From contig JAHHIG010000011.1 in NCBI GenBank assembly GCA_019358895.1, positions 1-64,000 of the forward strand: 64,000 nucleotides of DNA, written 5' to 3'. Made by a program: the position numbers and the translations under genes. This document shows, in pieces, positions 32,075-63,935 of this stretch. Numbering within the stretch: the stretch's first letter is position 1; each line of letters opens with the position of its first letter. This DNA is from Tildeniella nuda ZEHNDER 1965/U140. GTDB taxonomy: Bacteria > Cyanobacteriota > Cyanobacteriia > Leptolyngbyales > Leptolyngbyaceae. Under the pieces are notes generated by a model. The model was given only the letters and a program-made list of their open reading frames with translations. It was not told the DNA's origin and made no database searches.

Positions 32075-32080
32075 GGGAAA

Positions 32081-32297
32081 GGAGGCAGGAGGCAGGAGGC
32101 AGGAGGCAGAAGGCAGGAGGTTGAGCTTTCAGCCGTTGGTTTTCAGCCCACTCCCTACTCCCCACTCCCTACTCCCCACTCCCTACTCCCTACTCCTCAC
32201 CCCTCACACCTCACTTCCGCGAAGAGGCAGAAAGCAGGAGTGAAGAGAGTTAACGTTGATCTGCCGATCGGTCTTTTTAGCCTTTAGCCTTTCTACT
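32081..32297. repeat. composite heptamer-repeat cassette
   Basis: Modules in order: GGCAGGA units (32081-32120), a GTTGAGCTTTCAGCC linker, CTCCCTA/CTCCCCA units (about 32147-32197), CTCACAC units, then the linker CTCACTTCCGCGAAGAGGCAGAA (about 32210-32232), and TTTAGCC units (32277-32297). The last linker recurs inverted at about 58.27 kb. Confidence 0.85.
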
Positions 32298-42435: not shown

Positions 42436-44616
42436 ATGCCTGCACTTACGACCCCATTCATACCGCTTGCTTTTCCCCTTACTGCCGTTGTGGGTCAGGA
42501 AGCCATCAAACTCGCCCTACTGCTGGCAGCCGTCGATCCAGGCTTGGGCGGTGTGGTCATTGCCGGTCGTCGAGGTACTGCCAAATCGGTCATGGCACGG
42601 GCACTTCATGCACTGTTGCCGCCGATCGAAATTGTCGAAGGCTCCCTTAACAGCGATCCACTGCATCCCGAAGAGTGGGACGACGAGACCATTGAAAGGA
42701 TAAAGGATGAAGGCTCAAGGCTAAGTATGGAACCTGTTTTAGACTTTAGCCTTGATATTTTAGCCTTTCCTACAGCAGTGATTCCCGCGCCCTTTGTACA
42801 AATTCCTCTGGGCATTACAGAAGATCGGCTGTTGGGTTCAGTGGATGTCACCCAGTCAATTAAGCGGGGCGAGACGGTATTTCAGCCCGGACTGCTGGCA
42901 GAAGCGCATCGAGGCGTACTTTACATTGACGAAATCAATCTACTGGATGACCAGGCGGCAAATTTACTGCTGTCGGTGCTGACGGATGGACGGAACCAGA
43001 TCGAGCGCGAAGGCATTAGCTTTCAGCATCCCTGCAAACCGCTGCTGGTAGCTACCTACAATCCAGAAGAAGGAGACTTGCGCGAACATCTACTAGACCG
43101 GATTGCGATCGCCCTTTCTGCTGACATGGTGCTGGGTTTAGACGATCGTGTACTTGCGGTCGAGCAAGCCACTCGTTACACCGACTCACCACAGACGTTT
43201 TTGACTCAATACACCGACGACATCGACTCGCTCAAGACTCAAATTGTGCTGGCGCGAGAATGGCTCAGAGACGTGCAGATCACCTCCGAGCAAGTGGGTT
43301 ATCTGGTGAATGAAGCAATTCGTGGCGGTGTGATGGGGCATCGAGCCGAACTATTTGCCGTGCGCGTTGCCAAAGCTCATGCTGCGTTAGATGGTCGTAC
43401 AGACGTAACCGCAGACGATTTACGACGTGCCGTTGAATTGGTCATCGTGCCGCGATCGACCATTATACAAACGCCTCCTGAAGCACCGCCGCCGCCGCCC
43501 CCCCCCCCTCAGAGCCAGCAGGAACCAGAAGACGAGACAGAGCAGGAGCAGGACGATCGCGACGACGATGATCAGGATCAAGACAAGCCAGAACCAGAAA
43601 CACCCGCTATTCCTGAAGAATTCATCTTCGATCCCGAAGGCGTAATCCTCGATCCGTCCGTCCTCTACTTTGCCCAGTCAGCAACCCGACAGGGCAAATC
43701 CGGTAGCCGTGCCATTATCTTCTCGGACGATCGCGGTCGCTATGTCAAACCCATGCTACCCAAAGGAAAGGCACGCCGCATCGCTGTTGATGCCACACTG
43801 AGAGCTGCGGCTCCCTATCAGAAAGGGCGACGGGCGAGGAGAGAGGAGTCAGCGGTCAGCGGTCAGCAGTCAGCAGTCAGCAGTCAGCTTGCATCCAACT
43901 CGACATCCTACTCGCCACTCGCCACTCCCTACTCCCCACTCCCATCCCCTCCCCCCAAACGCGTCTTCGTCGAGCAAGCAGACATTCGTGCCAAACGCTT
44001 AGCGCGCAAAGCCGGAGCGCTCGTTGTCTTCGTTGTGGATGCGTCTGGCTCGATGGCGCTCAACCGGATGCAGTCAGCAAAGGGTGCCGTGCTGAGGCTG
44101 CTGACTGAGGCATACCAGAACCGCGATCAGGTCGCGTTGATTCCGTTTCGGGGCGAACAGGCAGAGATTTTGCTGCCGCCCACCCGCTCGATCGAAGCTG
44201 CAAAACGACGACTCGATCGCATGCCCTGCGGAGGCGGTTCACCCTTGGCACACGGGCTAACTCAGGCAGTACGAGTGGGCATGAACGCCAGACAGTCGGG
44301 CGATATCGGGCAAGTGGTGGTGGTTGCCATTACTGATGGTCGCGGGAATGTACCGCTGGCACGATCGCTCGGTGAGACCATTCCACCCGATGAAAAGCCT
44401 GACATCAAAGCCGAACTGCTCGACATTGCTGCCAAAATTCGCGCTCTTGGCATTCAGCTACTCGTTATTGACACCGAAAACAAATTTATTTCCACTGGTT
44501 TTGCCAAGGAACTGGCGCAGCAAGCAGGCGGCAAATATTACCATCTACCAAAAGCCAACGATCAGGCGATCGCAGCAATGGCGCGAGGGGCGATGCGTGA
44601 TATGACTCGTTCTTAA
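42436..44616 (+). CDS. chlD: magnesium chelatase subunit ChlD
   Basis: Subunit of the enzyme that inserts Mg into protoporphyrin IX, the first committed step of chlorophyll synthesis, together with ChlI and ChlH. The 726 residues comprise an N-terminal AAA+ domain with a GRRGTAKS loop at 44-51, IDEINLLDD and [10 protein letters not shown] proline run follows (PPPPPPPP near 355) with an acidic linker. The C-terminal integrin-I domain has MIDAS motif DASGSM and [11 protein letters not shown]. ChlD proteins are usually about 670-680 residues; the extra length is explained by two tracts that read like intergenic repeats (residues about 88-112 and 468-505). Confidence 0.95.
42700..42772. repeat. 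repeat-like tract inside chlD (first)
   Basis: An in-frame segment coding residues about 88-112 reads AAAGGATAAAGGATGAAGGCTC... and ends TTTTAGCC. It resembles the GGCTAAAGGATGAAG repeats at 32.28 and 58.20 kb. It falls between the LHPEEWDD and [17 protein letters not shown] motifs, where other ChlD proteins have a shorter variable loop. Confidence 0.65.
43846..43955. repeat. heptamer cassette inside chlD (second)
   Basis: In frame within chlD: GTCAGCG/GTCAGCA units (about 43853-43893), then a linker (CATCCAACTCGACATCCTACTC), then CGCCACT/CTCCCTA/CTCCCCA units to about 43952. The residues encoded are [23 protein letters not shown] followed by SPLP-type repeats. The layout mirrors the intergenic cassettes at 50.47 and 53.19 kb. 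Confidence 0.9.
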
Positions 44617-44799
44617 GAGCGGTCAGCGGTCAGCGGTCAACGCAGGATTGAAAGCTGAAAGCTGACGGCTGAAAGCTAAGTAGGACTACTCCATACCATG
44701 AACCGTTCTTAAGAGCGGTCAGCGTAGGATTTAAAGCTGAAAGCTGACGGCTGAAAGCTGACCGCTAAAAGCCAAATAGGACGACTCCATACCAGGAAC
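44608..44799. repeat. 96-bp tandem duplication over the chlD stop
   Basis: Copy 1 is 44608-44703 and copy 2 is 44704-44799. Both run from CGTTCTTAAGAGCGGTCAGCG to CTCCATACCA(T/G)GAAC. The unit contains the chlD stop codon, GGTCAGC units and AAAGCTGA units. Copies differ in heptamer number. Confidence 0.9.
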
Positions 44800-48360: not shown

Positions 48361-50475
48361 ATGACGAATCAAACGCCAGCAAACTCAGCGCAAGGTACTC
48401 AGGGCGCAGCCATGCCTGAGTCAAGCATCAATAAAGTGTTGCAGCGCGGTGGCGAAGAACTGTTGCTGGAAAAAGTGGACGATCGCTTTACGGTCAACGC
48501 CACAGATCAAGCGGCGATCGCAAATCTCCTTCAACCGCTGCCCGCAGATGTCAGCCCGGAGCGTGCGCCAGCTCAGCTCACAGAAATTGTGGTCGCCCCA
48601 GCGCAGCGTGATGCGGTGATGCAGCAGGTGCGAGATGCCGATGCCGTCAACTACGCCAGTCATGTCTATCAACTCAAGGACGATCCGGCATCGCGGCTGT
48701 ATTTAACGGATCAAATGACGATTCAGTTTGCGCCCTCAGTCACACCAGACGCGATCGCGCAAATCACTACACCGATAGGGTTACGCCAGGTGAAGCCGAT
48801 CGCAGGCGTGCCGAACACCTTTGTGTTTGAAACCACTACTAGCGCTCAAGAAAATCCGCTTAAAATTGCCAATCGCCTGATGCAGCGATCGGAGGTACTG
48901 ACCGCTGAGCCAAACATTATTGTGCGGACGCAAGATCACTATCGTCCTCGTGACCCCATTTATCCCAAGCAGTGGCATCTTAACCACAACGGCGGCGCTG
49001 ATCTGGCTCTCAATTCTCATGTTTTCGCCGAGACAGCGTGGGATATTACGCGAGGCATTCGATCGGTCACGATCGCTGTCATGGATGACTCTGTAGACCT
49101 CACCCATCCGGACTTTCAGGGCATTGGCAAAATCGTTGCCCCGCGTGACTTCAAGGAGAATGACTTTCTGCCACTGCCCGGTGATCCCGATGACAATCAC
49201 GGTACCGCCTGTGCAGGAGTTTCTACCGCTGAAGAAAACGGCGCGGGAGCCGTTGGAGTGGCTCCTGGTTGCGCCCTCATGCCCATTCGCACAACGGGCT
49301 TTTTGGATGATCAGACGATCGAAGACTTGTTCGGCTGGGCAGCCACAAAAGGTGCATCGGTCATTTCCTGTAGCTGGGGACCCGCGGCTGTCTACTTCCC
49401 ACTCTCACTCCGACAGCGTGCCGCCCTCACTCAAGCTGCCACCACTGGGCGCAACGGCAAAGGCTGCGTAATTGTGTTCGCTGCTGGAAACGCTAACCGC
49501 CCGACCAACGGCACCATCAATGAAAGCGGCTGGACTAACAATGCCTTGAGCGGTGATACTGCCTGGTTAGGAGGCTTTACCGTGCATCCCGATATCATCA
49601 CAGTTGCCGCTTCAACTAGCCTTAATAAAAAAGCGGCATACAGCAACTGGGGCGCAGAAATCTCCGTTTGTGCGCCCAGCAACAACGCACCACCGGGTAT
49701 CGGTCTTCAGGATATCGGCTATGTTTTTACGCCACCGCAAGTCAGAGGCGCGTTGCCTGGATTGGGCATTGTGACGACCGATCGCGTGGGTGCAGCAGGC
49801 TATGCTCCCGATAATATTGCGATCGATTTTGGTGGTACATCCAGCGCTTGTCCGTTGGTGGCAGGAGTTGCAGCGCTGGTGCTATCGGCAAACCCTGATT
49901 TGACAGCAACAGAGGTTAAGCAACTGCTACAGCAAACCGCAGACAAAATTGTGGACTCCAACCCCGATCCGCAGTTTGGTTTCCGCAAAGGTACGTATGA
50001 GGCAGGGGGACGGTGCGACTGGTTTGGCTACGGTAAAGTGAATGCTGCCAAAGCGGTTCAGGCAGCCGTGCAGCGACAGGCAATGGCAGCGATCGCTCCC
50101 TCTCGCCAGATCCAGCAGCAAAACACGACCAGCAGCGCCATTCCCGATCACAATCCCCAGGGATTAACCAGCACGATTCAGATCACGGAGACTGGCACCG
50201 TACGATCGATTCAAATCAGCGTAGCGATCGACCATAGTTTTCTCGGTGATCTACAAATCAGCCTGACCTCACCCAGCAATCAAACCGTTTTGCTGCAAAG
50301 CCGCACCCTTGGACGCAGCACCCGCCTTCAGACCACTTACACACTGCAAACGACAGCACTACTCAGGCGCTTCTTGAACCAACCCGTTCAGGGACGTTGG
50401 CAACTGCGCATTGTCGATGCCGCCGAAGGCGACACGGGGACGCTGAATAGTTGGACGTTGACAGTGGGAGTGTGA
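48361..50475 (+). CDS. subtilisin-like protease with P-domain (PrcA-like)
   Basis: A 704-residue S8 peptidase resembling the calcium-dependent protease PrcA of Anabaena. A pro-region lies at about 1-190. The catalytic domain (about 200-570) has triad residues Asp243 in VMDDSVDLTHPD, His280 in DDNHGTACAG and Ser494 in GGTSSACPLVAG. A C-terminal proprotein-convertase P-domain spans about 605-704 (SVAIDHSFLGDLQISLTSPSNQTVLLQ). The N-terminus is polar (MTNQTPANSAQGTQ), with no signal peptide or membrane helix, so it is cytoplasmic or exported by another route. All triad residues are present, so activity is expected. Confidence 0.92.
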   Translation: MTNQTPANSAQGTQGAAMPESSINKVLQRGGEELLLEKVDDRFTVNATDQAAIANLLQPLPADVSPERAPAQLTEIVVAPAQRDAVMQQVRDADAVNYASHVYQLKDDPASRLYLTDQMTIQFAPSVTPDAIAQITTPIGLRQVKPIAGVPNTFVFETTTSAQENPLKIANRLMQRSEVLTAEPNIIVRTQDHYRPRDPIYPKQWHLNHNGGADLALNSHVFAETAWDITRGIRSVTIAVMDDSVDLTHPDFQGIGKIVAPRDFKENDFLPLPGDPDDNHGTACAGVSTAEENGAGAVGVAPGCALMPIRTTGFLDDQTIEDLFGWAATKGASVISCSWGPAAVYFPLSLRQRAALTQAATTGRNGKGCVIVFAAGNANRPTNGTINESGWTNNALSGDTAWLGGFTVHPDIITVAASTSLNKKAAYSNWGAEISVCAPSNNAPPGIGLQDIGYVFTPPQVRGALPGLGIVTTDRVGAAGYAPDNIAIDFGGTSSACPLVAGVAALVLSANPDLTATEVKQLLQQTADKIVDSNPDPQFGFRKGTYEAGGRCDWFGYGKVNAAKAVQAAVQRQAMAAIAPSRQIQQQNTTSSAIPDHNPQGLTSTIQITETGTVRSIQISVAIDHSFLGDLQISLTSPSNQTVLLQSRTLGRSTRLQTTYTLQTTALLRRFLNQPVQGRWQLRIVDAAEGDTGTLNSWTLTVGV

Positions 50476-50575
50476 GGAGTGAGGAGTGAGGAGTGAGGAG
50501 TGATTTCGAGTTGATCCTGACCGCTGACCGCTGACCGCTGACCGCTCCCTCCTGCCTTCCACCTTCTGCCTTCCA
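50465..50575. repeat. heptamer cassette, inverted copy
   Basis: In order: GGAGTGA units (50471-50500), linker TTTCGAGTTGATCC, GACCGCT units (50518-50547), then CTGCCTTCCACCTTC units to about 50575. The reverse complement matches the cassette at 53190-53340 module for module, including the linker. It begins within the last bases of the protease gene. Confidence 0.9.
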
Positions 50576-50577
50576 CC

Positions 50578-51294
50578 TCACTCCACCAAATGATGATCCA
50601 TCGCAAACCGCACCAGTTCAGCGCGGTTGTTGGTATCGGTTTTGCGCAGCAAGCTGCTGACGTATTTTTCGACGGTGCGTGGGCTGAGGTGCAAATGTTC
50701 ACCAATTTGCATATTTGATTGCCCGTCCGATAGCACTTTGAGGACTTCGCGTTCGCGTTGAGTGAGGTTTAGCGCTGCAACAACGATAGTTAACGCCGCG
50801 TTCTGCGCTGCCGTGTGATTGTCGTTGTGAGTTGCCTGGGACGATCGCGATCGCTCCGTACGTTCAACATCACGCAAGCGCTCTGCATTCCCCCTTGCAA
50901 AGCGCCACTCCAGCTCAATCAATTGCAGTCGCTCCAGCAGATTTCGTACGACTGCTCCTAGCTCTTGCAGCTCAAACGGCTTGGAGAGATACACGTCACA
51001 GCCTGCCTGATAGCCTCGAATACGCTCTTGCGTGTCGTTGCGTGCCGTCAAAAACACTACAGGCAACAAGCGTGAAGTAGGGCGCTGCCGAATACGGCTT
51101 ACTAGCTCGTAGCCATCCATCTGCGGCATGGTGATGTCGGTGACAACGAGATGGGGCTGATAGTCTTCAACCAGCTTGAGCGCCTCTCGACCATTTTCAG
51201 CAGTGACAACCAGATAGCCGATCGTCTCCAGATAATCGCTGATCGACAGACGTGTTCCTAAGTCATCATCAGCAACAAGGATTGTGAGAGGCAT
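50578..51294 (-). CDS. LuxR-type response regulator, Rre1/Ycf29-like
   Basis: A 238-residue response regulator. The receiver (about 1-120) begins MPLTILVADDDLGTRLSISDYLE, with phospho-acceptor Asp in HLVVTDITMPQMDGYE, Thr in VVFLTARND and Lys in VYLSKPFEL. The LuxR DNA-binding domain (about 170-235) has LTQREREVLKVLSDGQSNMQIGEHLHLSPRTVEKYVSSLLRKT and ends RAELVRFAMDHHLVE, which matches Rre1 (chloroplast Ycf29) as I recall it. Rre1 controls heat-shock, salt and redox genes and is phosphorylated by Hik2. A Hik2-like kinase lies at 26.0-27.5 kb. The linker between domains is 40-50 residues. Confidence 0.83.
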   Translation of the reverse strand: MPLTILVADDDLGTRLSISDYLETIGYLVVTAENGREALKLVEDYQPHLVVTDITMPQMDGYELVSRIRQRPTSRLLPVVFLTARNDTQERIRGYQAGCDVYLSKPFELQELGAVVRNLLERLQLIELEWRFARGNAERLRDVERTERSRSSQATHNDNHTAAQNAALTIVVAALNLTQREREVLKVLSDGQSNMQIGEHLHLSPRTVEKYVSSLLRKTDTNNRAELVRFAMDHHLVE

Positions 51295-53055: not shown

Positions 53056-53419
<364 letters not shown>

Positions 53420-63449: not shown

Positions 63450-63470
63450 GTAGCGAATGCTTCGACTACG

Positions 63471-63530
63471 CTCGACATTCTTGTCTTTGTGCTCAACATT
63501 CTTATGTCTAGGCTCAACATTCTTAGGCGA
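63471..63530. repeat. 21-bp tandem repeat array, first block
   Basis: Three units of the form CTCAACATTCTTATGTCTAG, the first starting with CTCGACATTC. They are separated from the second block by about 110 bases of unrelated sequence. Confidence 0.9.
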
Positions 63531-63644
63531 TTTCCACGAAAGAAATTACCTGACGTAGTACGGTCATCTTGCCCACGTCCCAAGCGAGACGCTTGCACTA
63601 CGAAATAAATTAGGTAGATTCGTAGACTCTTTAAGAGAAATCTC

Positions 63645-63935
63645 CTTATGTCTAGGCTCAACATTCTTGTGTCTAGGTTCGACGTTACTTATGTTTGTGC
63701 GCGACACCTCTATGTTTCTGCTCAACATTCTTGTGTCCAGGCTCGGCGTTACTTATGTTTGTGTGCGACACCCCTATGTTTGTGCACGACATTACTTGTG
63801 TCTAGGCTCAACATCGTTGCGTTTGCATTCAACATTCTTATGTCTAGGCTCAACATTCTTGTGTTTGCGCTCAACATTCTTGTGTTTGCGCTCAACATTC
63901 TTATGTCCAGGCTCAACATACTCCAGGTCTGCGGG
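63645..63935. repeat. 21-bp tandem repeat array, main block
   Basis: About thirteen degenerate units of 21 to 22 bases, most containing CTCAACATTCTT and ending in TCTAGG or TTTGCG. The 22-base units break any frame, so it is not coding. On the minus strand a unit would read R-M-L-S-L-D-I. Confidence 0.92.

Follow-up and report, generated by a model that had tools for sequence, protein, structure and literature searches.

The gene chlD, which encodes magnesium chelatase subunit D, occupies positions 42436-44616 (+) of the window (the whole 64,000-nucleotide stretch that was analyzed), and two tracts within it resemble tandem repeats of the same genome. The question raised by this locus is whether repeat DNA has become a part of the protein and, if so, by which route and how commonly. 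The 726-residue product was assigned by the NCBIfam equivalog TIGR02031 (E 3.8e-235; 782 bits, above the cut-off of 499.55). ChlD was found in all 30 genomes searched, its own genome included; as far as found it is single-copy in this genome, the next strong match being ChlI (43%). The near relatives of this protein, namely those of Leptolyngbya sp. FACHB-321, Leptolyngbya sp. ES-bin-22, and Stenomitos rutilans, would place the host in the Stenomitos clade of the Leptolyngbyaceae.

The chlD open reading frame stays open across both repeat tracts, and both are thus in frame, as the initial annotation had claimed. The first tract falls in a loop within the AAA+ half of the protein (loop 1), and the second tract falls in a loop immediately ahead of the integrin-I domain (loop 2). 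The protein is longer than usual, but the excess is about 40 residues rather than the proposed 50 or so: from the VVGQE anchor to the stop codon it spans 709 residues, compared with a median of 668.5 for the 78 ORFs that have the anchor (22 of the 100 unique ORFs lack it and were left out of the count). The AlphaFold model of ChlD, built from 34 ChlD rows, has a mean pLDDT of 53.7 and is too poor for placing the loops in space; thus, low confidence at both loops gives weak support for disorder. Heptad arrays of AGCGGTC, TGAAAGC, and AAAGCTG were also detected by TRF immediately 3' of the chlD stop codon (44618-44772, +).

The loop-2 tract (43846-43955; ChlD residues 471-507) is a composite cassette with three parts: (i) a first arm at 43847-43888 (+) with the structure (GTCAGCR)6, for which TRF gave a period of 7 and 6.0 copies and which is translated into 15 residues, (ii) a centre at 43889-43906 (+), identified by pattern match as a diverged copy of GGATCAACTYGAAATC, and (iii) a second arm at 43907-43948 (+) of ACTCGCC/ACTCCCC heptads, also translated into 15 residues, for which TRF gave periods of 7 and 21 (4.9 copies of period 7 at 43910-43943). 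The period-7 identity of the tract is 0.70, compared with 0.29 for codon shuffles, and none of 1000 shuffles scored as high. Within its own genome the tract has at least 84 matches, which is a lower bound since 40 of 535 candidates were scored.

The best non-self match, 81% identical over query positions 2-109 (E 7e-22), is a cassette at 53188-53341 (+) located directly before a permease ORF that starts at 53354. Another cassette of the same family is intergenic and has the reverse orientation (50472-50579, -; detected by TRF, with a centre match on the minus strand). The chlD centre reads ATCCAACTCGACATC; its counterpart at three other loci, 53.2 kb (+), 50.5 kb (-), and contig 9, is ATCAACTYGAAATC. 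In about 1.66 Mb of sampled sequence the centre pattern had four matches in total, all from the genome of chlD (chlD itself, 53267 (+), 50501 (-), and contig 9:212658) and flanked by like arms. Since the centre is common to all these loci, the order arm-centre-arm, which the initial annotation had described as shared with the 50.5- and 53.2-kb loci, is real. A further two-arm heptad cassette, with an AGGAGGC arm followed by an ACTCCCT arm, was detected by TRF at 32080-32207 (+). The 53.2-kb cassette (53188-53353) also lies in an open frame that runs on into the permease ORF, with no ATG, GTG, or TTG before 53354.

The loop-1 element (42694-42769, +; 26 residues, 87-112) has a different architecture. 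Its matches, folding, and period 7 characterize it as an imperfect heptad inverted repeat of the GGATAAA/GGATGAA/GGCTAAA family. The genome contains 43 matches to the tract 42700-42772, of which the best other than the tract itself is 78% identical (E 7.5e-11), in agreement with its proposed kinship to a genomic repeat family. Its period-7 identity is 0.45, compared with 0.25 for codon shuffles, one of 1000 shuffles scoring as high; for a wider stretch around loop 1 two of 1000 shuffles matched the observed score. The tract folds into a hairpin (z -5.06; none of 200 shuffles as good), and the loop-1 tracts of three congeneric chlD genes also form hairpins, with z from -3.8 to -4.8.

Hairpins of this kind would fit mobile palindromic coding elements resembling the Rickettsia palindromic elements (RPEs), in which discrete hairpin units with an ORF insert as wholes and are copied by a transposase. 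One of five near relatives of loop 1 elsewhere in the genome folds strongly (z -7.2), and three of the seven non-self relatives that were fetched sit in frame within other proteins: one separates the SNF2 domain from the helicase C domain of a SNF2 protein, another is in a hydantoinase B domain, and the third is in a PMT domain. However, the other four near relatives show moderate or weak folding (z -2.1, -2.1, -1.6, and -0.5), the loop-2 tract forms no hairpin (z -0.09), its relatives at 53.2, 32.1, and 50.5 kb likewise do not fold, and the copies differ in unit number and family instead of being copies of a single consensus. (One further stretch of the folding set, L018:2820-2910, stops short of the loop and is uninformative.) We therefore regard the RPE-like account as rather unlikely. 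A single hairpin mechanism for both chlD tracts was rejected as well, being true of loop 1 alone.

Comparison of ChlD proteins demonstrated that both loops vary among relatives. Seven genomes of the genus were examined, and in every one of them both loops contain period-7 DNA and the ChlD frame is open across them. For loop 2, between 0 and 3 of 1000 codon shuffles reached the observed period-7 score in each genome; for loop 1, this number was 0 or 1 in six genomes and 12 in G003, where the signal is weakest. The heptamers often differ, being GTCAGCR in G000 and G001, GAAGGCA with ACACCCC in G005 and G006, and AACTCAA with ACTCCCC in G004, and loop 2 ranges from 26 to 53 residues of unrelated sequence. 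The extra segments of close relatives differ in heptamer number, as the initial annotation had predicted, and also in heptamer family.

Beyond the genus, loop 2 is short in most ChlD proteins and frequently consists of QPx alone. In a tree of 86 ChlD, 59 have a short loop 2 (fewer than 16 residues), 13 have a heptad loop, and 14 have a long loop without significant period 7, the last two classes depending on the chosen ends (L059 scored 4/1000 once, yet is counted as non-heptad in the tree). The tree was obtained after dropping 12 of 98 rows in which loop 2 was not delimitable, and it excludes ORFs shorter than 600 residues, for example that of G010, whose loop 2 shows period 7. At least four changes of the heptad state are required on this tree, two of them forced by well-supported branches, and Tolypothrix and Hassallia (Nostocales) form one separate case; the loop-2 site thus appears to be a recurrent landing place. 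Unrelated extra segments in many ChlD proteins had been named in advance as a sign of chance composition. Such segments do exist, as 14 of the 27 long loop-2 segments lack significant period 7, but all eight segments longer than 30 residues are period-7 DNA, and the chlD tract matches the repeats of its own genome end to end.

Heptad inserts are by no means restricted to chlD. In 864 kb of the genome we identified 68 period-7 arrays, compared with 7 arrays for periods 5, 6, 8, 9, and 10 combined; 21 of the 68 are within greedily chosen ORFs, some at gene ends. An array with 21-base units (13 copies, 67% matches), with larger periods of 63-64 bases as well, is also present at 63466-63919 of the window. 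Among 40 loci that match the chlD cassette, 17 are in long frames, and 14 of these, counting ChlD, interrupt a gene that has family matches both before and after the insert. The 14 hosts are ChlD, AnmK, aspartate kinase (LysC), LarB, a TPR protein, dihydroorotate dehydrogenase (PyrD), tocopherol cyclase, RecF, a PHO4 phosphate transporter, RsgA, a heavy-metal P-type ATPase, RecJ, MutS2, and a histidine kinase; for LarB, tocopherol cyclase, and RecF the second family match was confirmed separately. The remaining long-frame loci are L242, which has no family, L254, with a one-sided match, and the N-terminal array of a WD40 protein, for whose upstream part nothing matched above the cut-off. This WD40 protein contains six arrays in total, several of them between WD repeats. 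A GH116 enzyme, found outside the 40 loci, carries four arrays; sequence comparison with the solved Thermosynechococcus enzyme (PDB 9vmj) revealed from none to about 8 residues at the insert sites, and two of these sites are empty in the congener G001.

Two parts of the initial annotation did not hold in light of these data. The repeat families are not purely noncoding, since their members also occur inside genes, and the chlD case is not rare: both loops are filled in every congeneric genome examined, loop 2 is filled in other lineages including two Nostocales, and the cassette is present in at least 13 other genes with two-sided family matches among the 40 loci.

The loops of other hosts share the behavior of the ChlD loops. 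In PyrD, RecF, LysC, and in part RsgA, the congeners are mostly filled at the same loop with different heptamer families; thus, the site seems to be older than its present repeat content. The RsgA loops of G001, G002, and G003 are not measurably heptad (169-354 of 1000 shuffles as high) and that of G006 is marginal (20 of 1000), the PyrD loop of G001 has 9 residues and is not measurably heptad, and for LysC the period was scored in the one genome of seven that the anchor pattern caught, so that the evidence for the other six is the alignment. In G001 the PyrD match and the LysC match each include a single TAA; since their aligned open frames begin near the protein start, this TAA precedes the conserved part. 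The genes of the PHO4 phosphate transporter (L237:2102-2230, +) and the histidine kinase (L256:1921-2049, -) share a 129-bp composite at 94% identity; it is read in the same frame in both and has weaker copies (86-91%) on contig 16. This composite may be regarded as the strongest sign of copying as a unit, although the two host genes are 4 kb apart and a local duplication could account for the pair.

The wide range of hosts bears on a possible role of selection. The genus may need a longer flexible linker in ChlD, with heptads being mere raw material, and the loops filled in 7 of 7 congeneric genomes are what such a need would give. Nevertheless, persistence is equally expected if deletion is simply rare, the 26- to 53-residue loops have unrelated sequences, and at least 13 unrelated proteins among the 40 loci show like inserts. 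We consider selection for such a linker to be improbable.

Seven and three have no common factor, and thus a heptamer array encodes one and the same heptapeptide in every frame: VSGQRSA for GTCAGCG and TPHSPLP for ACTCCCC. Orientation matters, as GTCAGCG in its reverse form, CGCTGAC, meets a stop in each frame. We classified 116 arrays from five genomes by strand: long open frames contained 25 of the 40 arrays open on both strands, 21 of the 66 open on one strand, and 0 of the 10 open on neither (chi-square p 2e-4), a test that is partly true by construction because an array within an open frame must be stop-free. This gradient is what gene-blind insertion followed by loss of the broken genes predicts. 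As to the order of the arms, among 51 close pairs, 27 have a purine arm followed by a pyrimidine arm, 5 have the opposite order, and 19 have both arms of one type (27 vs 5, p 1e-4); this bias comes mainly from the genome of the window (18 to 0), the ratio in G005 being 5 to 4.

The same arithmetic could serve phase variation, in which a gene is toggled off and on as slippage of a single 7-base unit changes its frame. Seven is not a multiple of three, the chlD arrays have about 5 and 6 units, and repeats of this kind are capable of slippage. However, the hosts include ChlD, PyrD, and LysC, which are expected from their roles to be essential, the arrays are imperfect and deep within genes, and the ChlD frames remain open in all seven genomes; phase variation is therefore very improbable. 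The probability that the tracts are just low-complexity linkers, rich in S, P, Q, and R, whose resemblance to the repeats is accidental is negligible, because, even though loop 2 holds non-repeat extra residues in 14 of 86 ChlD and the linker ahead of it is proline-acidic in most aligned rows, period 7 is above codon shuffles and the loop-2 tract aligns end to end, centre included, with a cassette outside genes, so that chance composition was rejected on the codon-shuffle test and the shared centre.

Altogether, the chlD tracts are very probably heptanucleotide elements of the STRR type (short tandemly repeated repetitive sequences) that entered in frame and were kept in two tolerant loops, with turnover of families since then. 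According to this scheme, heptad elements would spread through the genome regardless of genes; an insert would be readable provided that its strand has no stops and that it measures a multiple of three; a readable insert would survive where the protein fold tolerates extra residues; a filled loop would tend to remain filled; and the unit number and heptamer family would turn over via slippage and exchange with other copies. In this scheme we infer the spreading step, and slippage or exchange between dispersed copies is the presumed route of turnover; the longer ChlD is probably made and functional. The initial observation is thus confirmed and its interpretation partly supported: repeat cassettes did become an in-frame segment of ChlD, at positions where most ChlD proteins have short loops, but the chlD case is one instance of a general process and no rarity.

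Tentatively, and with more doubt than belief, one may go further and view these repeats as a translatable satellite: composite cassettes, blind to genes and encoding a frame-independent peptide, that seed the proteome of the genus with interchangeable linkers rewritten by exchange. If true, nature would here have run a linker-insertion experiment on core enzymes. Counting against the STRR-type scheme proper, an earlier heptamer review that PMC4692102 cites found such repeats to be suppressed mid-gene in prokaryotes, and PMC4692102 itself describes a heptamer that is under-represented on the coding strand, which fits selection and not pure tolerance.

The implications of these results are several. 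Noncoding satellite-like DNA turns into protein in many genes of a free-living bacterium, and simple arithmetic (seven versus three, no shared factor) explains why heptamers suit entry into proteins. Aligned congeners provide filled, refilled, and empty sites in one enzyme loop, so that rates of entry, turnover, and tolerance become measurable. Heptad stretches in tocopherol cyclase, MutS2, and the PMT protein (L235, L250, and L012, respectively) draw matches to PF21300, a grass antifreeze beta roll; these are likely annotation artefacts. Annotators are thus warned that the inserts yield false Pfam hits, in three proteins here, and split alignments.

Comparison with known systems starts from the cyanobacterial STRRs, which have seven-base units, form many dispersed arrays, and have been described mainly as intergenic. 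A 1997 paper reportedly found them in heterocyst formers, within the gene for RNase P RNA. In six genomes that we searched for this known STRR site, heptad runs fell within the RNase P RNA match of G003 (L307:1788-1811) and G005 (L310:1642-1669), and G000, G001, G002, and G006 had none at the cut-off used. The repeats described here share with STRRs the tandem 7-base units and the many dispersed arrays in one genome (at least 84 tract matches; 68 arrays per 864 kb), and differ from them by forming two-arm cassettes within at least 14 protein genes.

Heptamers inside ORFs are already in print. According to the accessible portion of PMC4679880, 10 of 169 sets of the TAACTGA heptamer lie within ORFs, in the reverse orientation, which has no stops, and related heptamers occur in a variable surface loop of an RNA polymerase beta prime homologue; in the corresponding portion of PMC4692102, the GGGGAYT repeats of Nostoc are 68% intergenic, with a notable intragenic share. 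As far as these portions extend, both accounts deal with single heptamer families, unlike the composite cassettes reported here, and contain neither a change of families at a single loop among congeners nor a list of core enzymes.

In-frame dispersed elements of Rickettsia are a second precedent. As presented in the available part of PMC10969869, RPEs are dispersed repeat DNA, palindromes of about 150 bp with a conserved peptide, placed in frame within unrelated metabolic genes. By this partial description, the chlD-type repeats resemble RPEs in being in frame in unrelated protein genes. With respect to a palindromic, hairpin-forming unit the two tracts disagree, loop 1 folding and loop 2 not; the loop-2 cassette lacks a palindrome and codes alike in every frame, and heptamer family and number vary between congeners in place of a conserved peptide and a fixed unit of about 150 bp. 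With most subscription papers outside reach, no title or abstract opening that we saw concerned in-frame heptad cassettes in cyanobacterial core proteins. Against these precedents, and within the literature searched, three features look new: the composite cassettes, the number of core enzymes hosting them, and the shared sites at which the heptamers change genus-wide.
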